From: Arthrobacter mangrovi
GTDB lineage: Bacteria; Actinomycetota; Actinomycetes; Actinomycetales; Micrococcaceae
Reading direction: 5' to 3'
Assembly (NCBI RefSeq): GCF_026011795.1
Contig: NZ_BRVS01000026.1
Span: forward strand, 62,001-126,000
DNA: 64,000 nt
Part shown: one piece after another, positions 37,955-56,125 of the stretch
Layout: every line of letters begins with the position of its first letter
Numbering within the stretch: position 1 is the stretch's first letter
Position numbers and translations under genes: made by a program
The notes under the pieces: model-generated
The model's input: the letters and a program-made list of their open reading frames with translations, nothing else
What the model was told of the DNA's origin: nothing
Databases searched by the model: none

Positions 37955-38029
37955 TTTTCCAGCGTAGCGCCGCGGCCGCCGGATGGAGCCGGACGGAGCC
38001 GGCCGACGCCGGTGCTTGTGCTTCCCTGC

Positions 38030-38500: not shown

Positions 38501-38516
38501 CGCGGCCCCTTCCTGC

Positions 38517-38547
38517 TTGACCTCAAGCGTACTTGAGGTTGTTGGCT
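38517..38547 (+). promoter_or_regulatory. SoxR box within a stretched promoter
   Basis: CCTCAAG-CGTA-CTTGAGG (38521-38538) is an almost perfect match to the known SoxR box. It overlaps a TTGACC -35 (38517-38522), which is followed after 19 bases by a weak -10 TTGGCT (38542-38547). The long spacer with the operator inside is the classic MerR-type arrangement. It drives the oxidoreductase at 38624 and may also autoregulate soxR. Confidence 0.9.
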
Positions 38548-38623
38548 GGTCAAGACGCGGCCGAATCCGGCCGGGCCACCGGCCGGCTAAAGGCCCGGTT
38601 CCATCGATACAGCGGAGCAGAAT

Positions 38624-39589: not shown

Positions 39590-40944
39590 CCGTGGAGCTG
39601 GCGCCGGCGCCGCTGCTGTCCAAAACCTACCGCGCCACCACCGCCGGAATCTTCGCGCTCGCCTTCCTCTTCGCCTTCGAGGCGATCGCCGTCGCGACCG
39701 TCATGCCGGTGGTCGGCCGCGAACTGGACGGCCTGTCGCTGTACGCCATTGCCTTTTCCGCGCCCCTGGCCGTCGGCGTCATCGCCACCGCGATGGCCGG
39801 CGGCTGGATCGACGCGCGCGGCCCCGGCCCGGCGCTGCGCACGGGCGTGGGGCTCTTCGTCGCCGGGCTCATCGCCGCGGCGTTCGCGCCCAGCATGCCG
39901 GTCTTCCTGGTGGGCCGCGGGGTCCAGGGCTTCGGCTCCGGGCTGGCGGGCGTGGGGCTGTACGTGCTGATCGCGAAGGCGTACCCCGAGGGCATGCGCG
40001 CCCGCGCCTTCACCGTGCTGACCAGCGGCTGGGTGCTGCCGGCGCTTGCGGGGCCGGCGATCGCGGGGCTGATCAACCACTTGGCGGGCTGGCGGTGGGT
40101 CTTCGGCGGCGCCCCGCTGTTCGCCGTCGTCGCCTATCTTGCCCTCGCCCCGGCCCTGAGCACCACCCGGCAGGAAGGGGTGTGGAAGAACGACGGCGGG
40201 CGCACGGCATGGGCGGCGATAGTCGCCGCCGGGATCCTCGGCGTGGGGTTCGCCGGGCAGCGCAGCCTGGACTGGTGGATCGTGCTCGCCGTCGCGGCGG
40301 TGGCGGCCGTGCTGCTGGCCGCACCCCGGCTGCTCCCCAAAGGAACGTGGCTGTTCCGGCGCGGCCTGCCCGCGGTGATCTCGGTCCGCGGTTTGATCGG
40401 AGCCGGCTTTTTCGGTGCAGAGGTCTACCTGCCGCTGGCGCTGGTGGAACACCGGGGCTTCACGCCCACCGAAGCCGGCCTGCTGCTGACTACCTCGGCG
40501 GTCGCCTGGTTCTCGGGGTCCTGGCTGGCGGCCAACCTGCCGTTCCTCGCCGGCAAGGTCATGCGGGTGCGGCTGGGCACCGGGCTGGTCACGGCCGGAG
40601 TAGGCCTCGCGGTCCTTAGCCTGGACGCCCAGGTGCCGGTCGCCGTCGTTGTTGTTGGCTGGGCGATGGCAGGCCTGGGCATCGGCATGGCGTTCTCCAC
40701 GCTGTCGGTGCTGCTGCTGGACCACTCGGCGGACGGCGAAGAAGGCAGCAACAGTTCGGCGCTGCAGATCAACGATGCGGTGGTGCAGTCGCTCTACCTG
40801 GCGCTGGGCAGCATCGCCTTTGCCGCCCTCCTGCCGGTGGCGCCGCTCTGGGGCTTCATCACGGCCTTCGGCGGCTCCTTCGCGATCGCCCTGCTGGCGC
40901 TGCTGCTGACCCGCCGGCTGGCAGGAGCGCCTGGGCGGGGGTGA
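39586..40944 (+). CDS. MFS drug-efflux-type transporter
   Basis: A 452-residue major facilitator with about 12-14 helices. The DARGPG loop between helices 2 and 3 and GRGVQGFGSGLAGVGLYVLIAKAYPE match drug:H+ antiporters. It is co-transcribed with the SoxR-controlled oxidoreductase (4-base overlap), so it probably exports a redox-active compound or its reduced product. This pairing of reductase and exporter is typical of actinobacterial SoxR regulons. Confidence 0.88.
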   Translation: MTVELAPAPLLSKTYRATTAGIFALAFLFAFEAIAVATVMPVVGRELDGLSLYAIAFSAPLAVGVIATAMAGGWIDARGPGPALRTGVGLFVAGLIAAAFAPSMPVFLVGRGVQGFGSGLAGVGLYVLIAKAYPEGMRARAFTVLTSGWVLPALAGPAIAGLINHLAGWRWVFGGAPLFAVVAYLALAPALSTTRQEGVWKNDGGRTAWAAIVAAGILGVGFAGQRSLDWWIVLAVAAVAAVLLAAPRLLPKGTWLFRRGLPAVISVRGLIGAGFFGAEVYLPLALVEHRGFTPTEAGLLLTTSAVAWFSGSWLAANLPFLAGKVMRVRLGTGLVTAGVGLAVLSLDAQVPVAVVVVGWAMAGLGIGMAFSTLSVLLLDHSADGEEGSNSSALQINDAVVQSLYLALGSIAFAALLPVAPLWGFITAFGGSFAIALLALLLTRRLAGAPGRG

Positions 40945-41014
40945 TCCGGGGACAGGTGCCGGAGCTCTTCCCGGGACCCAAGGTTTCTGCAACCCTCCGG
41001 AAGATGCTGGACGC

Positions 41015-41029
41015 GTCAACTTTTGACGA
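41015..41029. promoter_or_regulatory. Palindrome CGTCAA-CTT-TTGACG before doxX-like gene
   Basis: Perfect 6-base arms with a 3-base spacer lie 33 bases before the DoxX start. The right arm TTGACG could also serve as a -35. It may be a MarR-type or other operator; no regulator is adjacent. Confidence 0.45.
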
Positions 41030-41061
41030 CGCTGGTCCGCTCTGTCCATAAGGAGAGTCCC

Positions 41062-41517
41062 ATGTCCATCCCTACCAGCACCAGCACCACCAGATCCGTT
41101 TCGAACATTGCCATTACCCTGCTGCGCGTCGTCGTTGGCCTGGTCTTCGTCGCCTACGGCTGGCAGAAGATCAGCACCAATACGATCGCCGGCGTCACCG
41201 GCTACTTCACCTCGATCGGCGTGCCCCTGCCCGAGCTGATGGCTCCCTTCATTGCCTACCTTGAGTTGCTCGGCGGCGCCGCACTGATCCTTGGCCTGCT
41301 CACCCGGCCGCTGGCGCTGTTGTTCGTCTGCGACATGATCGGCGCGGCGATCTTCGCCCACCTGCCCTCCGGCTTCTATGTGGAGAACGGCGGCTACTCG
41401 CAGGTGCTGCTCCTCGGCACCGCATCGCTGGCCATCGCGCTGATCGGGCCCGGCCCGTACTCGGTGGACCGCTACCTCTTCGGCCGGACGGAATCCAGGG
41501 CCTCGGTCCTGGCCTGA
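41062..41517 (+). CDS. DoxX-family membrane protein
   Basis: A 151-residue, four-helix membrane protein. RVVVGLVFVAYGWQKI and the central APFIAYLELLGGAALILGLLTR block define DoxX. Members are linked to oxidative stress and to thiol or quinone chemistry at the membrane. An AAGGAGAG site precedes the ATG at 41062. It is monocistronic, convergent with the TMEM175 gene, with a terminator between. Confidence 0.88.
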   Translation: MSIPTSTSTTRSVSNIAITLLRVVVGLVFVAYGWQKISTNTIAGVTGYFTSIGVPLPELMAPFIAYLELLGGAALILGLLTRPLALLFVCDMIGAAIFAHLPSGFYVENGGYSQVLLLGTASLAIALIGPGPYSVDRYLFGRTESRASVLA

Positions 41518-41579
41518 ATGCCGGCCATGGCCGGAAAATACCGGTCATGGCCATAACGCCGGCGGAGCCCGGGTGGATG

Positions 41580-41605
41580 GCGGGAGCCTGGTTCCAGGCT
41601 CCCGC
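41580..41605. terminator. Bidirectional hairpin terminator
   Basis: Perfect 12-base arms GCGGGAGCCTGG / CCAGGCTCCCGC with a TT loop between the convergent doxX-like and TMEM175-like genes. Confidence 0.8.
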
Positions 41606-41616
41606 TTCTGCCGTCT

Positions 41617-42210
41617 TCAGCCCTTCCGGTCCGCCTCGGCGGCCAGGAACCGCTCCACCCGGCGGTCCGGAATCAGCCAGATCGCGGCGACCACGGTGTA
41701 GGCGGCCACGGCCAGCAGGGGATTGACGAACGACAGCCCGATCCCGACGAGGTAGATGGCCGGCGAGACCTTCCCCTTCCAGTCCCGCCCCGTGGCCCGT
41801 GCCAGCGGACCGTCCCGCCCCTGCTGCCGGATGAGCGCCGATTCCAGCAGGTAATAGGCAACCGCCGCCAGCAGCAGGTTGATCCCGTACACGAGCACGG
41901 GGACCTGCGGAAAGCCGGATTCGTCCATCCAGCGCGTGGTGAACGGAAAGAGCGAGAGCCAAAACAACAGGTGCAGGTTCGCCCACAGGATCGTGCCGTT
42001 GATCTTCCCCGCCAGATGGAGCATGTGGTGGTGGTTGTTCCAGTAGATGCCCACGTACACGAAGCTCAGCAAATAGCTGTAAAAGCCCGGCAACTCCTGC
42101 GCCAGGCCGGTCCATGTGGGCTCCTCAGGCACACGGAGTTCGAGCACCATGATCGTGATGATGATGGCCAGGACGCCGTCGCTGAAGGCCTCCAGCCGGT
42201 TCCTGTTCAT
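41617..42210 (-). CDS. TMEM175/DUF1211-type membrane protein
   Basis: A 197-residue protein with six helices. The first helix RLEAFSDGVLAIIITIMVLEL contains the FSD motif of TMEM175 potassium channels; bacterial members have one such repeat and form tetramers that pass K+. The ATG at 42210 follows AAGGA; an ATG at 42228 is weaker. Monocistronic. Confidence 0.9.
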   Translation of the reverse strand: MNRNRLEAFSDGVLAIIITIMVLELRVPEEPTWTGLAQELPGFYSYLLSFVYVGIYWNNHHHMLHLAGKINGTILWANLHLLFWLSLFPFTTRWMDESGFPQVPVLVYGINLLLAAVAYYLLESALIRQQGRDGPLARATGRDWKGKVSPAIYLVGIGLSFVNPLLAVAAYTVVAAIWLIPDRRVERFLAAEADRKG

Positions 42211-42303
42211 GTTTGGTCCTTCATGCATGAATCATGGTCACCGCCCGGCCCGTTTGGGAAGCAGGCACTTGGAACGGTCACCAACGGCTCCAGCGAATGC
42301 CCA

Positions 42304-42309
42304 TATGAT
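42304..42309 (+). promoter_or_regulatory. Putative -10 element TATGAT for PaaX-like gene 1
   Basis: TATGAT sits 40 bases before the start at 42349. The same or a near-identical hexamer precedes two other units of the catabolic island (44586 TATGAT, 48309 TACGAT). No good -35 is present at 17 bases, so an activator may be needed. Confidence 0.4.
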
Positions 42310-42348
42310 GGCCGTAACCCCGCAGTCGACACCGAGGAGCCATACGCC

Positions 42349-43200
42349 ATGCCGCCGCCCCGCACCCAGCGGCCACTCCACCAGCAGCTGGTCGTCACGC
42401 TGTACGGGTTGTATGCAGGGAAGGCAGGAGGGTCCTTCCGGGTCGCAGCGCTTGTCGCGATGCTCGCCGATTTGGGCGTGGATGAACAGTCAGCGCGATC
42501 CACGGTCTCCAGGCTGAAGGCCAAAGGTACTCTGCTCAGCCGGCGTGATGACGGCGTGGCACGCTACGTCCTGTCAGGCGATGTCTTGGACATATTCAAT
42601 GCCGACGACCAGCGCATTTTCGCCCCGGAGCGGTCCAGGCCTGAAGATCCATGGGCGTTGGTGGTTTTCTCGGTGCCGGAGGCAGAACGTAACCGGCGTT
42701 ATGAACTCCGGTCGGAGCTGACCAGCTTGGGCTTCGGATTCGTGGCCGCAGGTGTCGCGATCGCGCCAAGTATGGTGATGGACCAGGCCATGGAACGGCT
42801 CGCCGCGCGGGGGCTGGACCGATATACGGAGTATTTCTCGGGCGATTATCTGAAGGGCGGGGATATCAGGGCGCAGGTCCCGCGATGGTGGGACCTGGAG
42901 TTGCTCGACAGGCAGTACTCGGCCTTCATCGACAGCTACGAATCCCTGGCCCGACTTTGGCAGGAACGTGTCCAAGCGGGGAAATTGCCGTCCGGCGCTG
43001 ACCGGTTGGAAGCCTTCCAAACCTATGTGCCGATGCTGACCCTGTGGCGGAAGTTTCCCTACCGGGATCCGAACTTGCCTCTGGAATATCTGCCCGCGGG
43101 CTGGCAGGCGCCACGCGCGAAGCAGGCGTTCCTGACGCTGCACGGCATCCTTCGGGCGCCGGCGGAGGATCATGCAGATGAGCTGCTTCGGACGCGGTGA
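42349..43200 (+). CDS. PaaX-family transcriptional regulator 1
   Basis: A 283-residue regulator of the PaaX type. The N-terminal winged helix RPLHQQLVVTLYGLYAG...LGVDEQSARSTVSRLKAKGTLLSRR (about 8-65) is followed by the PaaX-like middle domain (EAERNRRYELRSELTSLGFGF) and the C-terminal block YVPMLTLWRKFPYRDPNLPLEYLPAGWQ. PaaX proteins repress aromatic catabolic genes and respond to aryl-CoA esters. GAGGAG precedes the ATG. It closely resembles the second copy at 50645, so the two form a paralogous pair around the catabolic island. Its 3' end overlaps the convergent hydrolase by 31 bases. Confidence 0.9.
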   Translation: MPPPRTQRPLHQQLVVTLYGLYAGKAGGSFRVAALVAMLADLGVDEQSARSTVSRLKAKGTLLSRRDDGVARYVLSGDVLDIFNADDQRIFAPERSRPEDPWALVVFSVPEAERNRRYELRSELTSLGFGFVAAGVAIAPSMVMDQAMERLAARGLDRYTEYFSGDYLKGGDIRAQVPRWWDLELLDRQYSAFIDSYESLARLWQERVQAGKLPSGADRLEAFQTYVPMLTLWRKFPYRDPNLPLEYLPAGWQAPRAKQAFLTLHGILRAPAEDHADELLRTR

Positions 43201-43943
43201 ACCTGGGCCGGTACCTTGTCCATCCATCCGCGCACGAATGGCCATGTAGGCGAGGCCGGATCGATTGCGTCCAAGTGGTCCAGGCCATAGGGAGAGACGA
43301 AGTCGATGCGGTCGCCTGCCATCCGGGCCCGGGCAATGAAGTCCAATGAGTGCTCAACCGGCACCCGCTGGTCCACGGCGCCATGGACCACCAACGCCGG
43401 CGTACCCAGCGGCAGCTGCCTGACAGGGGAAGCGCCTGCATAGATCCCAGGGGCCTGCTCCGGCGATGCGCCGAAGAATTCCGCGGCAGCGTTCTCGCCG
43501 AGGCCTTCCCTGTGCGTGCGCGCGGCGTCGGTGACAGGAGCGAGGGCCACGACGGCATCCAGTTGGTCTGCGGCCAGCAAGGCCAGCTGCCCGCCTACCG
43601 AATGCCCGACGCCGACCAGCGGGCCGGGTGCGGCTCGGCGCCAGGCAGAAGCAGCGATGGCGGAGACGGACGAGCGCACGTCCTGACCGGTCTCGGGCCA
43701 GCCGCCGCCGTTGCCTCCGCGCCGGTATTCGACGTTGGCTACTGCCCAGCCTTGCCGGACCAGATCCCGCGCCAGGGGAACCATGAGTGAAGCATCGAAC
43801 CTGGCACGCCAATAGCCGCCGTGCACCAAGACAACCACGCCCCGGGAAGATCCGGGTACGGCAGAATCCCAGCATTGAATAGTCTGCGGGGCATGAGGGC
43901 CGTAGCTGAGCGTCAGCACTGGCGTGGCAGGATCTGGTTCCAA
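43170..43943 (-). CDS. Alpha/beta hydrolase, kynurenine-formamidase-like
   Basis: A 257-residue serine hydrolase. HGGYW at 41-45 is the oxyanion motif typical of kynurenine formamidases and some amidases; the nucleophile elbow is GHSVGG at 113-118; Asp and His follow in DQRVPVEH and LDHLDAID. The start is TTG at 43943, supported by AAAGGA 7 bases upstream. It lies downstream of cupin 1 beyond a hairpin, on the same strand. In this island it could hydrolyse an N-formyl or other amide or ester linked to an aminobenzoate, which is inference. Confidence 0.82.
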   Translation of the reverse strand: MEPDPATPVLTLSYGPHAPQTIQCWDSAVPGSSRGVVVLVHGGYWRARFDASLMVPLARDLVRQGWAVANVEYRRGGNGGGWPETGQDVRSSVSAIAASAWRRAAPGPLVGVGHSVGGQLALLAADQLDAVVALAPVTDAARTHREGLGENAAAEFFGASPEQAPGIYAGASPVRQLPLGTPALVVHGAVDQRVPVEHSLDFIARARMAGDRIDFVSPYGLDHLDAIDPASPTWPFVRGWMDKVPAQVHRVRSSSSA

Positions 43944-43964
43944 GATGTTGTCCTTTGCTGTTGT

Positions 43965-43996
43965 CCGGTGCCCGACGTAGACGAGCCGGGCACCGG
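43965..43996 (-). terminator. Hairpin between cupin 1 and the hydrolase
   Basis: CCGGTGCCCG and CGGGCACCGG form a perfect 10-base-pair stem, 12-base loop, starting 13 bases after the cupin 1 stop on the minus strand. It may attenuate read-through into the hydrolase. Confidence 0.6.
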
Positions 43997-44009
43997 AGGC
44001 GGGTTTCTG

Positions 44010-44495
44010 TCAGGCTCCGGGGACAGCGCCCGGCGGGAGGAAATCCACGTCGTGCAATGCAGAACGCCGGACGACTTCCTCCGGATCGTCCAGATCATGC
44101 AGCTGGTCGAAGAGCTGGGAGAGCCGGCCGGCCGGACTGACCCAGAACAGCGACTTTCCCGGAGTTTCGCCCTTGTTGTAGTAGGCGTGGGGAAGGCCCT
44201 TGGGCATGCGCACAGTGTCACCAGGTCCAGCCGTCGTCCACTCGCCGTCGAGGTAGAGCGTATAGACGCCCTCCATCACGTATATGTGCTCGTCCTGCGT
44301 CGGATGGACATGCGGGGGAACTCCGGTGCCGGTCGGATCCAGGGACAGCCATGCGAAGCTGGAGGCGCTCTCGACCTTCGCCAAGTACGTGTGGCCGAGC
44401 ACGTTCCAGGTCTTGTTTCCCATGGCCTCGCTTGCGAGCGTAATGCCTTTCGGCAGATCGCCCAGCACAATTTCCGTTTCTTGCTGCATTTCCAT
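44010..44495 (-). CDS. Cupin-domain protein 1
   Basis: A 161-residue single cupin. Motif 1 is read in GVPPHVHPTQDEHIYVMEG (His, His, Glu ligands) and motif 2 in GPGDTVRMPKGLPHAYYN. It binds a divalent metal and resembles quercetinase-like or small dioxygenase cupins. The ATG at 44495 has GAAAGGA upstream. It is transcribed leftward from a promoter (TTGCGA-17-TATCGA) that shares its -35 palindrome with the divergent MBL-MFS operon, tying it to the island's regulation. Reaction unknown. Confidence 0.82.
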   Translation of the reverse strand: MEMQQETEIVLGDLPKGITLASEAMGNKTWNVLGHTYLAKVESASSFAWLSLDPTGTGVPPHVHPTQDEHIYVMEGVYTLYLDGEWTTAGPGDTVRMPKGLPHAYYNKGETPGKSLFWVSPAGRLSQLFDQLHDLDDPEEVVRRSALHDVDFLPPGAVPGA

Positions 44496-44545
44496 GACAG
44501 ATCCTTTCGTCGAGCATCGGTGCGGCCAGCATGGCAGAGGATCCA

Positions 44546-44591
44546 TCGATATGCAATGGCTATTGCGATCGCAAAAAGTACTACATATGAT
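44546..44591. promoter_or_regulatory. Divergent promoters sharing palindrome TTGCGATCGCAA
   Basis: The 12-base palindrome at 44563-44574 supplies a -35 TTGCGA on both strands. Rightward: TTGCGA, 17 bases, TATGAT (44586-44591), toward the MBL-MFS operon. Leftward: TTGCGA, 17 bases, TATCGA (44551-44546), toward cupin 1. A protein bound at the palindrome would block or alter both promoters. A CGATCG-centred palindrome occurs at the same geometry at 48287-48296. Confidence 0.7.
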
Positions 44592-44700
44592 GTGTGTCAC
44601 GTTCCTGCCGGCCCGGTCCGGCTCAGTGAATCTTGCAAACCGCCAGCTGCGCTGACAGCCGCGGTATCCGCCCACCCATCAAGGAAGACGAGGGGCACTT

Positions 44701-45756
44701 ATGAGCAATTCAGCACCAGGAATGTCCGTCCACACACTAGGCACCGGCGGCGGCCCGATCGTTTCCAGCAGCCGCGCCGGCACAAGCACCGTGGTTTGCG
44801 TCGACGGTGCGGCTTATGTCATCGACTGCGGCATGGGCAGCATCCGCAACTACCGGTCGAGCTGCGCATGGTCGGATCTCCGAGGAATTTTCCTCACCCA
44901 CCACCACTCAGACCACGTCTACGACCTCGGCTCGTTCCTGGTCACAGGCTGGCAAGTCCCCGGGGAGTCCTTCAGCCGCCCCATCCATGTGTTCGGGCCG
45001 GGCAGGCCGCAGCGGATTCCTGCGTTGGACCAAGAGCATGCCGCGCAGGTTGATGAACGGACAGCCGGAAGGACCATGGCGGGTACGGTTGAGGTGGTCG
45101 ACGCGCTGCTGGACCGGGTTTTTGCCTCGGATATTTGCATCCGCATGGCAGATGAAGGTCGTGAAGAGCCGCACAATTGGGTGGTAGCCCACGACATCGC
45201 GATCCCGGATTCAGTGCCAGCGGATCCCGTCGAAGCGCGCCACCCGGCAATGGACCCGTTCGAGATCTATAAGGACGAGCTGGTGACGATCACGGCGATC
45301 CTGGTAGACCACCGGCTCTGTTATCCAGCCTTTGCCTTCCGCGTGGATTCCGCCTACGGTTCGGTGGTGGTCTCCGGCGACACCGCTTACTCGGAGAACT
45401 GCATCCGCCTTGCCCGCGGGGCGGATCTGCTCCTGCACGAAGTCATGGACCTGGACGCCATCCTGGCTACCTTCCCTGATGGGCCCACCCGTGACGGCAT
45501 CGAGATCCACCTGAGGGAATCCCACACGTCTTTCGAGGAAGTGGGCAAGGTCGCCCAGGCGGCCGGTGCGGGAAGGCTGGTCCTGCACCATATTGTGCCG
45601 AATACCCCTGGTGCTGCAGACCTGCAGAAGATCAAGGCGGGGGCCGCGAAGGATTTTTCTGGCCCGGTGCAGGTTGCGGAAGACAATGACTGCTTCATCA
45701 TCGCATCGACGCCTTCGCTGTCCGCCCCGCGTGAGGAAGCGGAGGTCATGGCATGA
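44701..45756 (+). CDS. MBL-fold hydrolase of the catabolic island
   Basis: A 351-residue metallo-beta-lactamase-fold enzyme. The metal motif THHHSDH is near 66-72; the bridging Asp is in SVVVSGDTAYSENC and a final His in VLHHIVPN. It resembles the RNase Z/arylsulfatase-like branch and has an insertion in the middle (EEPHNWVVAHDIAIPDS). In catabolic clusters such enzymes open lactones or hydrolyse esters, thioesters or cyclic amides. It overlaps the MFS gene by 4 bases (ATGA) and is driven by the divergent promoter at 44563-44591. Confidence 0.83.
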   Translation: MSNSAPGMSVHTLGTGGGPIVSSSRAGTSTVVCVDGAAYVIDCGMGSIRNYRSSCAWSDLRGIFLTHHHSDHVYDLGSFLVTGWQVPGESFSRPIHVFGPGRPQRIPALDQEHAAQVDERTAGRTMAGTVEVVDALLDRVFASDICIRMADEGREEPHNWVVAHDIAIPDSVPADPVEARHPAMDPFEIYKDELVTITAILVDHRLCYPAFAFRVDSAYGSVVVSGDTAYSENCIRLARGADLLLHEVMDLDAILATFPDGPTRDGIEIHLRESHTSFEEVGKVAQAAGAGRLVLHHIVPNTPGAADLQKIKAGAAKDFSGPVQVAEDNDCFIIASTPSLSAPREEAEVMA

Positions 45757-47207
45757 CCACGCAGAGCCAAATCCCGGCACATACCCTGCGTGCCGCCGTC
45801 GTACACGGCCGGATGAACCGGCGCGCGTGGCTGGTGACCGGAGCCCTGGTGGTCTTCCAGATCATCAATTTCGCCGACAAAGCGGTCATTGGCCTCGTCG
45901 CAGATCCAGCGATGCGGGACCTGGGGCTGACGGCAGGCGAATTCGGTTTCATAGGAAGCGCCTTCTTCTTCCTCTTCGCGGTTTCTGCCGTTGCCGTCGG
46001 TTTCCTGGCCGGCAAGGTCCCCACCCGCTGGATCATCCTCACGATGGGCATCTCCTGGGCAGTCCTGCAGTTCCCGATGCTCTTCGGCGGGGGTGCCGCT
46101 GTCCTACTGGTCACCCGCATCCTGCTGGGAGCAGCGGAAGGGCCGGCGACGCCGATCAGCCTGCAGCACGTCCACGGCTGGTTCCCCGCCAAGGAGCGGG
46201 GCCTGCCGAGCAGCCTGGTCGCCATCGGCTCGACTCTGGGGCCAATTGTTGCTGCGCCGGTGCTGGCGTGGATTATCGCCAACCCTGCCCTTGGCTGGCG
46301 CTGGGCCTTCGGCTTCCTGGGCATTGTCGGCCTGCTGTGGTCCCTGTGCTGGCTGGTGGTCGGACGGGACGGGCCCTACAGCCACACCAGGAAGCAGGAG
46401 GAGGGTGCAGAGCCTGCGGCGGAAGAGACGAAGCCGGGGCCTCTCCCGGGCTCGGAGGCTCGTGCCGGCACGGGAAACAGCATCGCCGACAGAGCCGACT
46501 TGCTAAAGATTGTGCCCATCCGCAGAATCCTTGGCACGCGCATGTTCGTCGCTGCGGTGCTGGCCGGCGCAGGCTGCTTTTGGGCCCAGGGGTTCCTGAC
46601 CACCTGGTCGCCGAAATATTTGGCCTCGGTGGTGGCGCTTCCGCCGGAAATGATCGGGCTTTTCTCGACCTTCCCGTGGATCCTCGGGGCTCTGGCTCTA
46701 CTGGCCCTAGGATATGGATCCCGCTTCCTGATGCGTCGCGGGGTTACGGTCCGGTGGGCGCTCGGTGCGTTGTTCGGAGCCACCTTGCTGTGCTCCGGAA
46801 TCTGCTTCCTGCTGCTGCCCGGACTCGGCGGCACGCCCGCTGTCATCGTGGTCACCCTAGGTGCCGGTCTGGCAATGACCTACCCGCTGGCGCCTACCGC
46901 AGTGGCCTTCGCCGTCTGTTCCAAGCAGCGCGCAGCAGTCATGGCAACGCTGACGGGGTTGGCATCTTTGGGAGGGGTCATAGCTCCGGCAATGGTGGGA
47001 TCGCTCATGGACAGCGCCGGGTACGTGCCGGCGCCGAAGGGGGTGCGGGAAACCGCCGAGATGGCGGCCCTGCTCGCCGAGGGCATGAACTCGGCGTTCT
47101 GGATGATCGGCATCTACCTGATTGTCGTCGGAGTGGGCAGCGTCCTGCTGCTCAACCCCGACCGCACGGCCAGCAGGTTGCAGGAAAAGTTCGTCTACAA
47201 CGGCTGA
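45753..47207 (+). CDS. MFS transporter, anion:cation symporter type
   Basis: A 484-residue major facilitator with 12 helices. The N-terminal FQIINFADKAVIGLVADPAMRDLGLTAGEFGFIGSAFF and the GAAEGPATPISLQHVHGWFPAKERG block fit the ACS family, which imports organic anions such as phthalate, hexuronates and vanillate. It is coupled to the MBL gene, so it probably imports the substrate of that enzyme. It ends at a strong bidirectional terminator. Confidence 0.88.
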   Translation: MTTQSQIPAHTLRAAVVHGRMNRRAWLVTGALVVFQIINFADKAVIGLVADPAMRDLGLTAGEFGFIGSAFFFLFAVSAVAVGFLAGKVPTRWIILTMGISWAVLQFPMLFGGGAAVLLVTRILLGAAEGPATPISLQHVHGWFPAKERGLPSSLVAIGSTLGPIVAAPVLAWIIANPALGWRWAFGFLGIVGLLWSLCWLVVGRDGPYSHTRKQEEGAEPAAEETKPGPLPGSEARAGTGNSIADRADLLKIVPIRRILGTRMFVAAVLAGAGCFWAQGFLTTWSPKYLASVVALPPEMIGLFSTFPWILGALALLALGYGSRFLMRRGVTVRWALGALFGATLLCSGICFLLLPGLGGTPAVIVVTLGAGLAMTYPLAPTAVAFAVCSKQRAAVMATLTGLASLGGVIAPAMVGSLMDSAGYVPAPKGVRETAEMAALLAEGMNSAFWMIGIYLIVVGVGSVLLLNPDRTASRLQEKFVYNG

Positions 47208-47293
47208 TGGAACCTCCGCCGGGGGTGCGGCATCGGGGTTACGCAAGCTCCGATGCCGCCCCTTCCGGAGGAATACGGGGTTTCGCGGACAAC

Positions 47294-47328
47294 AGAAGGA
47301 CCGGCGTCGTTACGACGCCGGTCCTTCT
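47294..47328. terminator. Perfect bidirectional hairpin terminator
   Basis: AGAAGGACCGGCGTCG and its exact complement (16 base pairs) with a TTA loop, between the convergent MFS and cyclase genes. The outer AGAAGG/CCTTCT gives a T-rich exit on both strands. Confidence 0.9.
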
Positions 47329-47348
47329 GCGCTCTGGGTCAGACAGGC

Positions 47349-48164
47349 TCAGGAACTGCGCGGCACGAGGGCGAGCACCCTCGCGGGGCTGCCGGTTCCG
47401 CCAACAATCGGCAGCGGAGCCACGATCAGCATCGCCCCGCGCGGAGGCAGCTGGGCGAGGTTCTGCAGGGAGGTTAGGCCGTACTTGTCCGCACCGAGCA
47501 GGTAGTAATGCATGGGGAAGATCGGCTCCAGCGTCCCTGCCTTGCCGGCGTCGATTCCCACGGTCTCGACTCCGAAACCTGCAATGCCGGTCCGCGAGAG
47601 CCACTGGGCGCATGCGGCCGAGGCCCCGGGAGTGTGGGAGCCGGACTCGTCAGCGTTGAGGAACCTTTCGCGGTCCCGGGCGAAGGCGTCCCAACCGGTG
47701 CGGTACAACACCCAGCCGCCTTCGGGCAGGGGCCCATGCTGTTCTTCCCAGGCCTGGATGTGTTCGACCTCGAGCAGGAAGTCCGGGTCGGCGGCGGCTT
47801 CGGCCGTGAAATCGAGGACGACGGCGGGGCCGATGAGGCGGGGGAGCGGAATGTCCGCTACGTCGTGGCTGTGACGCCCGGTCACCCAGTGGATGGGGGC
47901 ATCGATGTGCGTGCCGATATGTTCGCCGGTGTGGATATTCTGGTGCTTCCAGAACGGACCCGGCTCGTCGTACTCGCTCACGGTCTCCAGGCTGAAATCG
48001 ATGAGGTTCGCGAACGGCTCCGGTAGCCGGAGTGTCGGGGTCTCATGGCTGAGGCGGTTAGTGAGGTCGACGATTTCGACGTCATGGCCCGCCAGAGCGT
48101 CGAGGAGACCGACCAGAGGGCCGCCGGTACGGTGGGATACGGTATTGGTGGTTTCGGAAGACAT
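47349..48164 (-). CDS. Cyclase-family (KynB/isatin-hydrolase-type) amidohydrolase
   Basis: A 271-residue metal-dependent hydrolase of the cyclase superfamily. The signature HIGTHIDAPIHW (about residues 84-95) is the HxGTHxDxPxH motif shared by bacterial arylformamidases (KynB) and isatin hydrolases. VDLTNRLSHETP near the start and the FGVETVGIDAG block are typical. Either activity would yield an anthranilate precursor (kynurenine or isatinate), matching the CoA ligase and monooxygenase downstream. It is divergent from the thioesterase-ThDP-PaaX operon across a palindromic promoter region. Confidence 0.85.
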   Translation of the reverse strand: MSSETTNTVSHRTGGPLVGLLDALAGHDVEIVDLTNRLSHETPTLRLPEPFANLIDFSLETVSEYDEPGPFWKHQNIHTGEHIGTHIDAPIHWVTGRHSHDVADIPLPRLIGPAVVLDFTAEAAADPDFLLEVEHIQAWEEQHGPLPEGGWVLYRTGWDAFARDRERFLNADESGSHTPGASAACAQWLSRTGIAGFGVETVGIDAGKAGTLEPIFPMHYYLLGADKYGLTSLQNLAQLPPRGAMLIVAPLPIVGGTGSPARVLALVPRSS

Positions 48165-48268
48165 TCATCCAGCTTTCGGATCGTGGGATGGCATGGCCCC
48201 GGTCACAGAGCGACGGCGGTCGTCCATGTCTATCACCGAAGTGCGGCCGTTTCCAGGTTCCCGCACGA

Positions 48269-48314
48269 CTTCTATTGCTCCGGCTAGACGATCGTCAATT
48301 TTTCGACATACGAT
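48269..48314. promoter_or_regulatory. Divergent promoter region with palindrome GACGATCGTC
   Basis: A 10-base palindrome at 48287-48296 is centred 17.5 bases before TACGAT (48309-48314), the likely -10 of the thioesterase operon; the same distance occurs at 44563-44591. Leftward, TGACGA and TAGAAG at 17 bases spacing could drive the cyclase gene. Confidence 0.6.
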
Positions 48315-48375
48315 GGTAGCCAGAACCCGGAAGGCTTCCCCGAACGGGGAGGATGCCCCCGGGAGAGGAGAAACC

Positions 48376-48825
48376 ATGGACGCGCAGGTGAATGAGCAGC
48401 AGGCGGAGTGCACCGGGGCCAGCATCGAGCGGACCGTCGAGTGGGCCGATACCGATGCTGCGGGGCACCAGCACAACTCAGCGATCATGCGCTGGGTCGA
48501 GGCGGCCGAGGCCGAGCTGTTCCGCAGGTTGGACTTGCCGGACTATTTTCCCTGCGCTCCTCGGGTCCAGCAGGTCATCAACTATCAGGCAAAACTGTGG
48601 TTCGGCCAGCGCGTCACGGCAACCCTGCATGTCCGGAACGTGGGCCGGACCTCGCTGACCTTCGCCTTCGAGGTGCATGGCCAGCCGCACGAAAAGTCGT
48701 CCGGCGGGCTCGCGGCGTACGGCACCTTCACTACGGCCTACGTCCCCGAGGGTGCCGACCGGGCAGCGCCCTGGCCGGAACACATCCGTGCCGCTCTCGC
48801 CCGCGGAACTTCCGTCCCGGCCTGA
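48376..48825 (+). CDS. 4HBT-type acyl-CoA thioesterase
   Basis: A 149-residue hot-dog thioesterase. EWADTDAAGHQHNSAIMRWVEAAEAELFRRL carries the catalytic Asp and the family's GHxxxxxxxR pattern. The ATG at 48376 follows GAGAGGAG. It is the first gene of an operon with the ThDP enzyme and PaaX copy 2. It probably releases CoA from an aryl- or acyl-CoA intermediate, or rescues CoA. It is a second thioesterase in the island, unrelated in sequence to the TesB-type one at 53500. Confidence 0.85.
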   Translation: MDAQVNEQQAECTGASIERTVEWADTDAAGHQHNSAIMRWVEAAEAELFRRLDLPDYFPCAPRVQQVINYQAKLWFGQRVTATLHVRNVGRTSLTFAFEVHGQPHEKSSGGLAAYGTFTTAYVPEGADRAAPWPEHIRAALARGTSVPA

Positions 48826-48896
48826 ACGGGCCACAGGTTCCACGTCGACAGACGATTCAGACTGTTTTCCAGACGCTTTCCCAGGAGGAGGCTTTC

Positions 48897-50642
48897 ATGA
48901 CTGCTACCAGCACCCAAGCCGCGCAGAGCGGCGCAGCCGCGACCGGAGCTGCCGAAGGGGCTCTGCACTCCCGCCCGGAGCCCCGCCCGGCCGCCAACGT
49001 TGCGGAACTCGTCGGTTACACCCTGGCGCAGCTCGGGGTTGGCCACGTCTTCGGCGTCGTCGGCAGCGGGAACTTCGTGGTGACTAACGCCTTGCGGCGG
49101 CACGGGGTGCCGTTCACCGCTGCCCGGCACGAGGGCGGTGCGGCGACCATGGCCGACGCGTACGGGCGGATGTCCGGCAAGGTCGGCGTCGTCTCCACCC
49201 ATCAGGGCTGCGGCCTGACGAACGCGGCCACTGGGATCGGGGAGGCGGCCAAGAGCCGCACGCCGATGATCGTACTGACGGCGGATACCGCTGCCTCCGC
49301 CATTCGGTCGAATTTCAAGATCGACCAGGACGGCCTGGCGCGCAGTATCGGGGCGGTAGCCGAGCGCATCCATTCGCCGCACAGCGCGGTGGCGGACACC
49401 GTGCGGGCCTACCGCACCGCCGTGAACGAGCGGCGGACCGTGGTGCTCTCACTGCCAACGGATATCCAGGCCGCGCCGGTCCCGGAAGGAACCTCGGCCG
49501 TCATTGGTCGCTTGGAGGCACCGCAGACGGTGCGGCCGAACGCCGACGCCGTAGCGCGGCTCGCGGGGTTGATTCGCGCAGCGCAGCGGCCAGTGTTCGT
49601 GGCCGGTCGCGGAGCCCGCGGAGCCGGCGAGGAAATAGCCGCGCTGGCCGAGGCGAGCGGCGCGCTGGTGGCGACCTCCGCCGTCGCACACGGACTGTTT
49701 AACGGCGACCCTTTCAACCTCGGCATATCCGGCGGCTTTTCCTCGCCCTTCACCGCCGCAACGATTGCGGACGCCGACTTGGTCGTCGGCTGGGGGTGCG
49801 CGCTGAACATGTGGACGATGCGGCATGGCTCCCTGATTAGCGCGGACGCGAAGGTAGTGCAGGTCGACGTCGAGGACGCCGCGCTCGGCGCCAACCGGCC
49901 GGTTGACCTCGGCGTGCTGGGCGACTGCGCCGAGACTGCGGCAGCCGTCCTGGAGGAGCTGCAGTCGGCAGTGCACCGGGCCTCGGGGCTGCGCACGCCG
50001 GAGACAGCGGCGCGCATTGTGGCTGAGTCCCGGTGGAATGACGTGGAAACCACGGACCTTTCGACCGGGGAAGCAATCGACCCGCGGGTCCTGAGCCGTG
50101 AGCTGGACAAAATCCTGCCGATGGGGCGGATCGTGTCGGTGGACTCCGGAAACTTCATGGGATATCCGAGCGCGTACCTGTCAGTGCCGGACGAGTATGG
50201 ATTCTGCTTCACGCAGGCTTTCCAGTCGATCGGGCTGGGCCTGTACACGGCGCTCGGCGCGGCGATAGCCCGGCCGGACCGCCTGCCCGTGCTCGGTGCA
50301 GGCGACGGTGGATTCCTGATGTCGATCTCGGAGCTGGAGACCGCGGTGCGGGAGCAGATCCCGCTGGTGGCAATTGTGTACAACGACTCCGCGTACGGCG
50401 CCGAAGTACACCACTTCGACGCCGACGAAGAGGACCTGCAGGTCGTGAAGTTCCCGCAGACGGACATCGCGTCGATCGCGCGGGGCTACGGCGCCGAAGC
50501 GGTCACCGTGCGCACCGAAGAGGATCTGGCCGCCGTGGCCGGCTGGGTTAGCGGGCCTCGGGAGAAGCCGCTGGTCATCGACGCGCGGATCGCATCCGAC
50601 GGCGGCGCCTGGTGGCTCGCCGAAGCTTTCAAGGGCCACTGA
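48897..50642 (+). CDS. Thiamine-diphosphate enzyme, acetolactate-synthase/benzoylformate-decarboxylase-like
   Basis: A 581-residue ThDP enzyme. The catalytic Glu lies in RHEGGAATMADAYGRMSG; the central FAD/ADP-like domain is present; the ThDP motif begins GDGGFLMSISELETA and continues to NDSAYG. A disordered Ala-rich N-terminus precedes the domain. The ATG at 48897 follows AGGAGGAG. In this setting a decarboxylase acting on a 2-oxo acid next to an aromatic ring is attractive, for instance isatinate formed from isatin, but acetolactate- or oxalyl-CoA-type reactions cannot be excluded. Confidence 0.82.
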   Translation: MTATSTQAAQSGAAATGAAEGALHSRPEPRPAANVAELVGYTLAQLGVGHVFGVVGSGNFVVTNALRRHGVPFTAARHEGGAATMADAYGRMSGKVGVVSTHQGCGLTNAATGIGEAAKSRTPMIVLTADTAASAIRSNFKIDQDGLARSIGAVAERIHSPHSAVADTVRAYRTAVNERRTVVLSLPTDIQAAPVPEGTSAVIGRLEAPQTVRPNADAVARLAGLIRAAQRPVFVAGRGARGAGEEIAALAEASGALVATSAVAHGLFNGDPFNLGISGGFSSPFTAATIADADLVVGWGCALNMWTMRHGSLISADAKVVQVDVEDAALGANRPVDLGVLGDCAETAAAVLEELQSAVHRASGLRTPETAARIVAESRWNDVETTDLSTGEAIDPRVLSRELDKILPMGRIVSVDSGNFMGYPSAYLSVPDEYGFCFTQAFQSIGLGLYTALGAAIARPDRLPVLGAGDGGFLMSISELETAVREQIPLVAIVYNDSAYGAEVHHFDADEEDLQVVKFPQTDIASIARGYGAEAVTVRTEEDLAAVAGWVSGPREKPLVIDARIASDGGAWWLAEAFKGH

Positions 50643-50644
50643 AA

Positions 50645-51520
50645 ATGATCGACATTCCCGCTCCTCCGCTGCAGCATCAGCAGCTGATCCTGACTATTTA
50701 TGGCCTGTACGGGCGGCGCGGCGGCGGGCCATTGCCGGTCTCGGTCCTGATCGACATGCTCGGAGACCTCGGCCATGATGCTCCTGGTGTCCGTTCGGCT
50801 GTGTCGAGGCTGAAGGCCAAGGGCGTCCTCAACAGCGTCAAGTCGGGCGGGGTGGCGAAATACGAGTTGTCGCCGCGCTCGCTGGAAATGGTCAACGAGG
50901 GCGATGAGCGCATCTTCGCGCCCTATCGGGGAGCCCCCGGAGGCCAGTGGATGCTGGCGATATTCTCCGTTCCGGAGTCGATGCGGGACCGGCGGCACCA
51001 GCTCCGGACGGAACTGACGCGCCTGGGCTTCGGGTCCATGGCAGCAGGCGTGTGGATCGCACCGGCGGATGTGCGTGAAGGTGCGAAGCGGCGGCTTTCT
51101 TCCCGCGGGCTGGCCGATTACGTCGAGTTCTTCACCGGCGATTACGCCGCCGAGGGGGACATGCGCCAGCGGGTTGCACAGTGGTGGGACCTGGACGCGC
51201 TGGGCAGCCAAATCGCTGAATTCATGGAGTACTACCAGACCGCGCTGGATGATTGGTCAGGCGTGCTGGGCCAAGACCCGGAGGCGGCCCTGGCGCAATC
51301 TACGGCGCAGCTGCGCCGCGACGCCTTCCGGTACTACGTTCCCATGCTCACGCTGTGGCGGCGCCTGCCCTACCGCGACCCCGGTCTGCCGCTCGAATAT
51401 CTGCCCGAGGGCTGGCAGGGGCCCGAGGCACGGCGCATCTTCTTCGGGACCCATGACCTGATCGCGCCCTTGGCCGAAGTCCACGCCATGTCGCTGGTCA
51501 CCAAAGCCGAGGCGGCCTAG
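50645..51520 (+). CDS. PaaX-family transcriptional regulator 2
   Basis: A 291-residue PaaX-type regulator, the paralogue of copy 1 at 42349: QLILTIYGLYG...VRSAVSRLKAKGVLNSV at the N-terminus and FRYYVPMLTLWRRLPYRDPGLPLEYLPEGWQ near the end. It starts 2 bases after the ThDP gene's stop, so it is the last gene of that operon and autoregulated with it. An aryl-CoA such as anthraniloyl-CoA or salicylyl-CoA is the expected effector (family knowledge plus inference). A perfect terminator follows. Confidence 0.9.
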   Translation: MIDIPAPPLQHQQLILTIYGLYGRRGGGPLPVSVLIDMLGDLGHDAPGVRSAVSRLKAKGVLNSVKSGGVAKYELSPRSLEMVNEGDERIFAPYRGAPGGQWMLAIFSVPESMRDRRHQLRTELTRLGFGSMAAGVWIAPADVREGAKRRLSSRGLADYVEFFTGDYAAEGDMRQRVAQWWDLDALGSQIAEFMEYYQTALDDWSGVLGQDPEAALAQSTAQLRRDAFRYYVPMLTLWRRLPYRDPGLPLEYLPEGWQGPEARRIFFGTHDLIAPLAEVHAMSLVTKAEAA

Positions 51521-51535
51521 CTTCGCCAGGCAAAC

Positions 51536-51576
51536 GACAGCGGCCCGGCCGGCAACATGCCGGCCGGGCCGCTGTC
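51536..51576. terminator. Perfect 19-bp bidirectional hairpin
   Basis: GACAGCGGCCCGGCCGGCA and its exact complement with an ACA loop, between the convergent PaaX 2 and RidA-like genes. Confidence 0.9.
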
Positions 51577-51591
51577 GGCCTGGGCGGTTAC

Positions 51592-52008
51592 TTAGCGGTC
51601 CTGGATCACCGCGACGCCCTGGATCTCGATCAGGGCTTCCTTCTGCCAGAGTCGGCTGACGCCGATCCCCGCCATGGCGGGGTACTCGGTGCCGGCCATC
51701 TGGCGCCAGAGCTTGCCGATCTCTCGGCCGTTGGCCATGTAATCGTCCACGTCCGTGAGGTAAATGGTCACGCTGACGAGGTCCTCGGGGCGGCCGCCGG
51801 CCTCTTCCAAGGTGGCCAGGACGTTGGAGAAGGCCTGCTTGAACTGCTCCACGATGCCGCCGGGGACGATGTTCATGTCCTTGTCCAGTGCGGTTTGTCC
51901 GCCGAGGTAGACCGTGTTGCCTGCCAGGATGCCGTGGGCGTAGCCCGAGGGCTTGGGCAGTGACTCGGGGTTGATGGTGCGGTTGGCTACTGCGGTCTGG
52001 TTGCTCAT
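51592..52008 (-). CDS. RidA/YjgF-family protein
   Basis: A 138-residue trimeric enamine/imine deaminase-type protein. GILAGNTVYLGGQTALDKD, VSVTIYLTDVDDYMANG and YPAMAGIGVSRLWQKEALIEIQGVAV are family blocks, but the usual catalytic Arg of RidA (in the PxR motif of true RidA) is not evident; the line reads PAMAGIGV. Related proteins include 2-aminomuconate deaminase. In an amino-aromatic pathway it could release ammonia from a ring-opened enamine. It is divergent from the FAA-hydrolase operon. Confidence 0.85.
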   Translation of the reverse strand: MSNQTAVANRTINPESLPKPSGYAHGILAGNTVYLGGQTALDKDMNIVPGGIVEQFKQAFSNVLATLEEAGGRPEDLVSVTIYLTDVDDYMANGREIGKLWRQMAGTEYPAMAGIGVSRLWQKEALIEIQGVAVIQDR

Positions 52009-52149
52009 TGCTGCTCCCTTGGCTCGGTGTGTCCGATTTCACAAAATTCCGAAAAAACCTCTGTGCAGATCCTTTCGACCGTGCTACGTTGAGCATATGT
52101 GACGGCCGTAAAAAAGTCGACACATCGAAACCCGGAGGAGATCAACAGC

Positions 52150-53007
52150 GTGAAACTAGCCACTCTGCGCACCGGCGCAGCAACAACGACGGCGGCGGTC
52201 CTGACGGGCGCGGAGACCTACCTGCCGCTGCCCGCTAGTGATGTCGGCGCCTTGATCGCGGCCCCGGCTTGGCGGGTGCGCACGGAGGAAGCGGTGCGCA
52301 CGGCACCCGCATCCGCCGTCGTGCAGGTTTCCGGATCGCAGCTGGCGCCGCTGCTGCCGCATGCCGGCAAAGTCATTTGCTGCGGACTGAACTACGGAGA
52401 CCACATCCAGGAGATGGGGCGGGAACTGCCGGAGTACCCGACGTTGTTCGCCAAGTTCGCCGACACACTGGCCGGTCCGTCGGACGAGCTCGACGTGCAC
52501 GGCAGCGACAGGGTGGACTGGGAATCCGAGCTGGCCGTGGTGGTAGGGGCGACGCTCACCCGTGCCGATGAATCCCAGGCGGCCGCGGCGATAGCCGGCT
52601 ACACGGTGGCCAACGACCTCTCCATGAGGGACTGGCAGAACCGGACCCTGCAGTGGTTCCAGGGCAAAGCCTTTGACGCCAGCACCCCGGTGGGGCCGGT
52701 GCTGGCCACGGCTGACGAGTTCGACGGCAGCGGCTTCGAGGTGCGCGGCTACGTCAACGGCGAACTCGTCCAGCGGGGACACACGCGGACGCTCGTCTTC
52801 GGTCCGGCGCGGCTGCTGTCCTACATCTCGCAATTCACCACATTGCGCCCGGGGGACCTGGTCCTGACCGGGACGCCGGGCGGAGTGGGAATGGGCATGA
52901 CACCGCCGCGCTTCCTGCAGGACGGCGACACGATCACGACCGAAATCGACGGGATTGGCCGGCTGGAAAACCGTGTCCGGATCCGTCAACTGGCACTGAA
53001 CAACTGA
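52150..53007 (+). CDS. Fumarylacetoacetate-hydrolase family enzyme
   Basis: A 285-residue FAH-family hydrolase from the GTG at 52150, preceded by GGAGGAG. ICCGLNYGDHIQEMG (catalytic His), VDWESELAVVVG (metal Glu residues), YTVANDLSMRDWQ and the LRPGDLVLTGTPGGVGMG loop are characteristic. It cleaves a C-C bond of a 2,4-diketo acid such as fumarylpyruvate or a ring-cleavage product. It is the first gene of a five- or six-gene + strand operon (FAH, cupin, thioesterase, CoA ligase, monooxygenase, transporter). Confidence 0.88.
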   Translation: MKLATLRTGAATTTAAVLTGAETYLPLPASDVGALIAAPAWRVRTEEAVRTAPASAVVQVSGSQLAPLLPHAGKVICCGLNYGDHIQEMGRELPEYPTLFAKFADTLAGPSDELDVHGSDRVDWESELAVVVGATLTRADESQAAAAIAGYTVANDLSMRDWQNRTLQWFQGKAFDASTPVGPVLATADEFDGSGFEVRGYVNGELVQRGHTRTLVFGPARLLSYISQFTTLRPGDLVLTGTPGGVGMGMTPPRFLQDGDTITTEIDGIGRLENRVRIRQLALNN

Positions 53008-53020
53008 GAAGGAGCAGGAC

Positions 53021-53503
53021 ATGAGCGAGACAGCTACCGAATACCGCACCGAGGGAGACAACTCGATCTACGCCGGTGCTGACGGCAAGGTCGTGCCCGT
53101 AGTAACCCGCGGGGGCAGCGAGGACACAAACACCGCCCAGTCCGGGGACTGCGTACGGGTGTCCGGCGTCAGTATCCAGCACACGCCGGCGACCAAGATC
53201 TGGTTCGGCCAGGTCTCCAACGTCCCTGGGTACCGTTCCCTGCCGCACCACCATGGCGAGGCTGAAACGGGGGGCTACGTGCTGCGCGGCCACGGCCGGA
53301 TCTACTTCGGCGAGGACTACTCCGAGTTCATCGATATGAAGACCGGCGACTGGGTGTTCGTGCCGCCGTTCATGCCGCACGTTGAGGCGAACATGTCGGT
53401 CACCGAAGAGCTGGTGTGGCTGACGGCCCGTACGCCGGAGAACATTGTGGTCAACCTTGAGGACGTAGCGGACGAATCGCTGGAAGGATACCGGCGGGCA
53501 TGA
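53021..53503 (+). CDS. Cupin-domain protein 2, candidate ring-cleavage dioxygenase
   Basis: A 160-residue single-domain cupin. Motif 1 G(70)-x5-HxH(76, 78)-x3-E(82) and motif 2 with His 120 (GDWVFVPPFMPH) give a 2-His/Glu plus His metal site. The size is like 3-hydroxyanthranilate 3,4-dioxygenase and much shorter than gentisate 1,2-dioxygenases. It lies 13 bases after the FAH gene and its stop overlaps the thioesterase start (ATGA). As the only oxygenase-like protein near the FAH enzyme, it is the best candidate to open an aromatic ring in this cluster; unproven. Confidence 0.8.
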   Translation: MSETATEYRTEGDNSIYAGADGKVVPVVTRGGSEDTNTAQSGDCVRVSGVSIQHTPATKIWFGQVSNVPGYRSLPHHHGEAETGGYVLRGHGRIYFGEDYSEFIDMKTGDWVFVPPFMPHVEANMSVTEELVWLTARTPENIVVNLEDVADESLEGYRRA

Positions 53504-54378: not shown

Positions 54379-54456
54379 GCCCCGGCGGCATCCCTACCAT
54401 CGGCGATGCCACCCAGGCTCCGCGGCCCTCACATCCATCCCACTGAAAGGAACGCC

Positions 54457-56112: not shown

Positions 56113-56125
56113 AAGGACTACGGAC

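Follow-up and report, generated by a model that had tools for sequence, protein, structure and literature searches.

The closest described counterpart of the regulatory sites analyzed here is the MeqR2 system of plasmid pAL1 (Arthrobacter sp. Rue61a), in which MeqR2 reportedly has TGACGNNCGTcA as its operator and anthraniloyl-coenzyme A (anthraniloyl-CoA) as its effector. A second point of reference is the phenylacetate repressor PaaX of the Escherichia coli type. Excerpts of the Rue61a genome paper (PMC3534580) attribute a part in the control of quinaldine degradation to two PaaX-related regulators encoded on the linear plasmid. Our subject is a 64,000-nucleotide stretch of Arthrobacter mangrovi (the window), which carries an anthranilate/isatin gene island with two PaaX-family genes, paaX1 and paaX2, in the order paaX1, abH, cup, mbl, mfs1, isaH, thio, tpp, paaX2, ridA, fah, cup2, tesB, acs, hyd (ridA, cup2, tesB and acs are names borrowed from annotated counterparts on pAL1). 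Palindromic sites lie between the divergent genes cup and mbl (site 1), isaH and thio (site 2), and ridA and fah (site 3). We consider it fairly probable that the three sites are operators of PaaX-type repressors, PaaX2 acting at sites 2 and 3 and PaaX1 at site 1; the pairing of protein with site, the repression and the effector are what we infer. The sites, the promoters around them and the two regulator genes are as follows.

44549 to 44588: site 1, whole dyad of about 40 bp, with an ATATGCA arm, the TTGCGATCGCAA core and a right arm ending in CATAT.
44563 to 44574: site 1 core, TTGCGATCGCAA, centered at 44568/69; its left half is at the same time the rightward -35.
44586 to 44591, plus strand: rightward -10, TATGAT, 17 bp from TTGCGA (44563-44568).
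44528 to 44556, minus strand: best candidate leftward promoter, with -35 TTGCAT (44551-44556), 17 bp and the extended -10 TGC-CATGCT (44528-44536).
48286 to 48297: site 2, AGACGATCGTCA, one mismatch from TGACGnnCGTCA, overlapping the -35 region of a promoter with -10 TACGAT (48309-48314).
52100 to 52111: site 3, TGACGGCCGTAA, in the ridA-fah intergenic region, one mismatch from TGACGnnCGTCA.
52082 to 52090: probable extended -10 of fah, TGC-TACGTT, picked out by eye.
42349 to 43200, plus strand: paaX1, PaaX-family repressor gene (Pfam PaaX, PaaX_M and PaaX_C), its product in a clade of its own, linked to the module abH-cup/mbl-mfs1.
50624 to 51520, plus strand: paaX2, PaaX-family repressor gene of the PaaX2/MeqR grade, overlapping the end of tpp.

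The palindrome TGACGnnCGTCA emerged from comparing the regions upstream of thio, isaH and ridA-fah in relatives of the window, ahead of any comparison with pAL1. The 40.8-kb stretch of pAL1 has it exactly at three places (19778, 39963 and 40369 of locus L055) and with one mismatch in the ridA-fah intergenic region and at two other places. This occurrence, together with the match to the operator ascribed to MeqR2, makes sites 2 and 3 probably operators of the PaaX2/MeqR2 type; both have the TGACGnnCGTCA palindrome in a promoter region, as expected of operators with the motif reported for MeqR2. The likeness extends to the genes, as the same lower-pathway genes adjoin the ridA-fah divergon on pAL1, and PaaX2 and PaaX1 are 47% and 44% identical to MeqR2, respectively. 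On the other hand, the upper pathway consists here of isatin hydrolase and a cupin/metallo-beta-lactamase (MBL) module and there of quinaldine genes, site 1 has its TTGCGATCGCAA inside a longer dyad, and the PaaX1 clade contains neither MeqR1 nor MeqR2.

Matches to TGACGnnCGTCA with at most one mismatch were counted from 200 bases upstream to 20 bases inside each gene in 31 loci, with 0.05 to 0.39 expected per gene by chance. They precede ridA in 16/18 and fah in 14/16 (chance 0.2 to 0.3), thio in 10/17, isaH in 8/12, mfs2 in 4/6 and cup2 in 2/18, while cup and mbl have one each in 24, both being the same site in genome G017. None was found upstream of tpp (15), paaX1 (24), paaX2 (26), abH (24), mfs1 (24), tesB (18), acs (19) or hyd (18). 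These counts are not independent, since divergent pairs have one common site and the paaX1 and paaX2 rows are partly the same genes. In five relatives of the genus a thio -10 was recognized by eye at a constant distance (TACCAT, TATGAT, TACGAT, TATCAT, TAAAAT). Genome-wide, matches to TGACGnnCGTCA within one mismatch number 237, compared with 158 in the reversed control, and are too numerous to delimit a regulon. A fourth, autoregulatory operator, TGATGGCCGTAA at 42306 before paaX1, was considered and discarded: relatives mostly have a -10 of the TAGGAT/TATGAT type there, and 0/24 were within one mismatch.

A sequence-only reading of the window had already pointed to two palindromes centered on CGATCG, TTGCGATCGCAA at 44563-44574 and GACGATCGTC at 48287-48296. 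Both are there, and their centers (44568/69 and 48291/92) do lie 17.5 bases before TATGAT (44586-44591) and TACGAT (48309-48314). The same reading missed the third operator, in ridA-fah, whose core is CGGCCG and is not caught by a search for CGATCG. As a stand-alone motif CGATCG is common and was rejected (32 in the window against 41 expected), and perfect 12-bp palindromes are equally unremarkable (38 against about 31). The combination CGATCG-N14-TAYGAT is found twice in the 64 kb, where 200 Markov sequences gave 0.015 on average, and three times in the whole 4.43-Mb genome, with none in the reversed control. About one copy would be expected by chance if the Markov rate were extended to the full genome, so that the placing outweighs the number: all three copies precede PaaX-linked aromatic operons. 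The third belongs to a second anthranilate island, on contig 27, where a thioesterase gene and a PaaX2 paralogue lie downstream of it. That island (38000-55200) is near-identical (hyd 96%, PaaX2 91%); there CGATCG-N14-TATGAT precedes thio, TGACGGCCGTAA precedes fah, and the 20 kb examined showed no close tpp, isaH or cup-mbl module. TTGCGATCGCAA itself occurs once in the genome.

To follow site 1 we used 395 genomes of the family, of which 235 have some MBL match and 22 (our own included) a close one (69 to 100%), the other listed matches reaching 45%. In all 22 cup is divergent to mbl. The site 1 sample (n = 24) consists of a 21-row alignment, genome G179 and two genomes from another family of the order. 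Conservation in orthologous islands, proposed with the original observation as its check, was borne out for both palindromes, for the second by the thio and isaH counts above. TTGCGATCG is found at site 1 in 22 of the 24 genomes, the exact 12-mer in 11, and TTGCGA-17-TAnnnT, i.e., a conserved rightward promoter, in all 24, as are the spacer bases YCG. Pairwise identity of the core is 0.91, compared with a median of 0.55 over 144 windows of the 21-row alignment. The composite pattern (at most one mismatch) has 23 matches in the 24 genomes, 22 at cup-mbl and one elsewhere in G433, with none in the control, so site 1 is nearly single-copy per genome; it finds nothing in G378 and G391 because the -10 is TACTCT there. 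In the four loci that have cup without a neighboring mbl, site 1 is absent (best matrix score, -2.2 bits).

The two halves of the core pair in 84% of cells in register and in 1 to 38% when slid by 1 to 4 columns, and the outer arms ATATGCA/TGCATAT in 81.5% in register and 1 to 41% when slid (24 genomes). Pairing in register that is lost on sliding indicates that the site 1 element is a dyad of about 40 bp, although part of its conservation may serve the promoters instead, as the left arm contains TTGCAT and the right arm the start of the rightward -10. A consensus scan of 44450-44750 found TTGCGA/TATGAT, rightward, as the sole consensus promoter. The initial reading had made the palindrome an operator shared by two divergent promoters, and only its rightward half stood. 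The leftward promoter, TTGCGA-17-TATCGA, is present on the minus strand of the window but its -10 is not conserved: variants include TATCAA, TATCGG, TATTGA, CACTTG and TAGTGG, 5 of the 21 aligned loci have T as the sixth base, two of those start with CATTTT, and we rejected it. A better candidate is TTGCAT-17/18-TGnCAnGCT, which the plain consensus scan did not list. Its extended -10 is present in 21/21 aligned loci (GAAGCT in one row), 17 to 18 bases from the TTGCAT position, where 18 rows have a TTGCAT-like hexamer and three rows of one genus (g9) a TATACA-like one. Directly after the rightward -10 there is also a TGA-N6-TCA(C) element (44588-44599 in the window), which many loci retain where transcription is expected to start; it resembles a weak TGACGnnCGTCA and in G017 is TGACGnnCGTCA with one mismatch.

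Both PaaX1 and PaaX2 score above the Pfam cut-offs for PaaX, PaaX_M and PaaX_C and belong to the broad PaaX repressor family. They have all three domains in common with the phenylacetate PaaX of the E. coli type, and PaaX1 matches PDB 8a39 (E = 1.2e-15). They differ from it in scoring about half the cut-off of TIGR02277, the phenylacetate PaaX equivalog (138.2 bits for PaaX1 and 133.6 for PaaX2, against 264.55), and in the anthranilate/isatin genes that replace the paa genes. As originally suggested, PaaX-family proteins are the best candidate regulators, both initial sites have the look of operators that overlap promoters, and the regulation involves several transcription units. PaaX1 and PaaX2 are 49% identical. 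In a midpoint-rooted tree of 35 proteins, in which several deep forks are open, 17 module-linked proteins form a PaaX1 clade (support 100/100), with PaaX2 and the MeqR proteins outside it. All members of this clade adjoin the abH-cup/mbl-mfs1 module; no PaaX1-like protein more than 54% identical was found away from the module in the 22 genomes searched, and the best match in four genomes with cup alone was 45%. In G287, G378, G384 and G391 the module-side PaaX falls outside the clade, and G433 and G587 have only 40 to 41% matches to PaaX1 and were left off the tree.

The site 1 core varies with the presence of PaaX1. CGATCG is followed by C in 16 of 18 genomes that have PaaX1 and in none of the 6 that lack it (one-sided p = 0.0002, kinship ignored), and core palindromy is 0.92 with and 0.61 without. 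In two genomes, G168 and G156, PaaX1 and site 1 are at one place and a different PaaX with TGACGnnCGTCA sites is elsewhere. The sites themselves fall into two motif classes, TTGCGATCG[C]AA at site 1 and TGACGnnCGTCA at sites 2 and 3, with almost no crossover in 24 loci. Site 1 has 4 mismatches to TGACGnnCGTCA by letter comparison and does not match the MeqR2 operator type; conversely, site 2 scores <5 bits with the site 1 weight matrix, which does match upstream of thio in G163 (23 bits) and G378 (15.5 bits). Two motif classes and two paralogues from different clades make two regulators likelier than one, and site 1 is probably the operator of PaaX1. The original proposal of one regulator for both sites, which do have a common core and geometry, is supported only in part.

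On this assignment, PaaX2 at sites 2 and 3 would cover the promoters of isaH, thio-tpp-paaX2, ridA and fah-hyd and repress them, and an aryl-CoA, probably anthraniloyl-CoA by analogy with MeqR2, would release it. Site 1 would be a diverged, dedicated operator between cup-abH and mbl-mfs1, read by the neighboring PaaX1. A PaaX1 dimer there would cover the rightward -35 and the spacer and, as the left half of the site is the -35 of TTGCGA-17-TATGAT, would directly silence mbl-mfs1; cup-abH may be silenced by PaaX1 that sits some ten bases before the leftward -35, or that extends across it. The proteins also differ outside the DNA-binding domain: at alignment columns 138, 139 and 157, PaaX1 proteins mostly have Y-E and A, and PaaX2/MeqR proteins H, mostly Q, and W. 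Column 138 is Y in 17/17 PaaX1 and H in 18/18 others, and column 157 is A in 16/17 and W in 18/18. These are candidate effector-pocket differences and would fit a different effector for PaaX1.

Several observations weigh against assigning the sites in this way. The outer arms still pair at 69% in genomes without PaaX1 (0.86 with it). The six PaaX1-less genomes go back to about three lineages, which leaves few independent events behind the association, and all six keep the left half TTGCG, which its -35 role alone could explain. Conversely, G017 and G104 have PaaX1 and an altered right half of site 1. The presumed recognition helices are nearly alike (mostly RST[VI]SRLK in PaaX1 and RS[AS]VSRLK in the others). 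For sites 2 and 3, 7/17 thio promoters have no TGACGnnCGTCA within one mismatch, including those of G163, G038 and G136, of the same genus, in which the left half has decayed (TGTACGATCGTA, TATACGCCCGTCA) or is missing, and the contig 27 CGATCG-N14-TAYGAT site is more than one mismatch from TGACGnnCGTCA. No conserved site was detected before paaX1 in 24 loci. Finally, the comparison of sites 2 and 3 with MeqR2 depends on the motif and effector reported for that protein.

A more specific version of the two-repressor reading is that the paralogous pair split an ancestral CG-NN-CG operator into two specificities, with PaaX1 reading the long dyad (about 40 bp, made up of the 12-bp core and the arms ATATGCA/TGCATAT) across both divergent promoters, perhaps as two cooperating dimers, and core symmetry being lost without PaaX1. 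We put this forward tentatively, as the less probable side of the argument; such a dyad would be longer than the 12-bp site reported for MeqR2.

Rather unlikely, to our mind, is that one PaaX, or both interchangeably, act at all three sites through the common CG-NN-CG core, the classes reflecting promoter constraints (TTGCGA as -35) instead of two specificities. The identical geometry of sites 1 and 2 and the similar recognition helices would agree with it, as would G391, which has a single PaaX match (E <= 1e-20) and yet combines site 1 (TTGCGATCGTCAA) with sites of the TGACGnnCGTCA type upstream of thio and ridA. It has to contend with motif classes that almost never cross over, with the separate placing in G168 and G156 and with the lower core symmetry where PaaX1 is absent. 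Less probable still is an unlinked regulator of another family at site 1, the PaaX genes controlling sites 2 and 3 only. The mismatches of site 1 to TGACGnnCGTCA would be accounted for, and there is a precedent of sorts in a Paenalcaligenes metagenome bin (L036, 8500-12450), where cup, abH, mbl and mfs1 are co-directional and adjoin a gene that by eye looks AraC-type; with no PaaX match and no site 1 match in its 21 kb, the same genes apparently have a different regulator there. However, a PaaX gene is found in the 16- to 21-kb stretch around site 1 (or within the window) in 24/24 genomes with the divergent pair, a systematic search for other regulator families not having been made, and the CG-NN-CG core is common to the sites. 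That the conserved stretch is only promoter sequence with chance palindromy is hardly credible, for although its left half is a -35 and 12-bp palindromes are common, the spacer YCG is invariant, the composite is nearly confined to cup-mbl with none in the controls, and the core pairs in register.

The genes that these putative operators would control are listed below. Their 4.43-Mb genome is that of a member of the Micrococcaceae in the Arthrobacter crystallopoietes group; A. crystallopoietes BAB-32, whose MBL protein is 90% identical, was the nearest named relative found.

43170 to 43943, minus strand: abH, alpha/beta hydrolase of the BD-FAE family, in the site 1 leftward operon.
44010 to 44495, minus strand: cup, cupin enzyme gene (Cupin_2), heading the leftward operon; 80 to 99% identity within the family.
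44701 to 45756, plus strand: mbl, metallo-beta-lactamase-fold hydrolase, heading the rightward operon.
45753 to 47207, plus strand: mfs1, major facilitator superfamily (MFS) transporter, second in the rightward operon.
47349 to 48164, minus strand: isaH, isatin hydrolase homologue (PDB 5nmp isatin hydrolase, E = 1e-72), leftward of site 2.
48376 to 48825, plus strand: thio, 4HBT thioesterase, heading the run thio-tpp-paaX2.
48897 to 50642, plus strand: tpp, thiamine-diphosphate enzyme, by domain search.
51592 to 52008, minus strand: ridA, RidA-family gene, leftward of site 3.
52150 to 58525, plus strand: fah-cup2-tesB-acs-hyd, anthraniloyl-CoA lower-pathway genes, in the order annotated on pAL1.

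The genes paaX1 and abH are convergent, and their 3' ends overlap by about 30 bases (43170-43200). For cup, abH and mbl the searches led to no name more exact than those listed. The fah product is an FAA_hydrolase (Pfam), its GTG start assigned by eye, and hyd is of the 2-aminobenzoyl-CoA monooxygenase/reductase type (NF006101, 1232.8 bits, above the cut-off of 1078). In two stretches of close relatives (L033 and L040), tpp and isaH have no match and paaX2 is directly 3' of thio; in two others (L032 and L042) tpp is present with no isaH match, which indicates that the isatin branch is gained or lost, not strictly as a unit. Passages of a review on indole (PMC6221969) mention an Arthrobacter producing isatin and anthranilic acid from indole and name the 2-aminobenzoyl-CoA route among the fates of anthranilate. 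Our literature search found no paper joining PaaX with isatin, and no operator for these PaaX proteins in the literature searched; in the part available of a paper on the phenylacetate pathway (PMC13186573), the terms "operator" and "binding site" do not occur.

What we describe is largely an extension of a known regulatory type. New are the second operator class at cup-mbl, the link between that class and a PaaX clade of its own, and the third site. A close homologue of hyd is present in 22/22 genomes with the module, compared with 76 of the 395 family genomes (hypergeometric 1e-17, kinship ignored), and it is probably the anthranilate pathway that the cupin, hydrolase, MBL and MFS genes supply. 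If so, this co-occurrence would link an uncharacterized cupin/hydrolase/MBL/MFS module to anthranilate metabolism. If our reading of the sites holds, the 24 genomes, 18 with PaaX1 and 6 without it, would provide a natural series in which the duplication of a repressor and the divergence of its operator can be traced base by base, and the operators themselves might work as anthraniloyl-CoA sensors.

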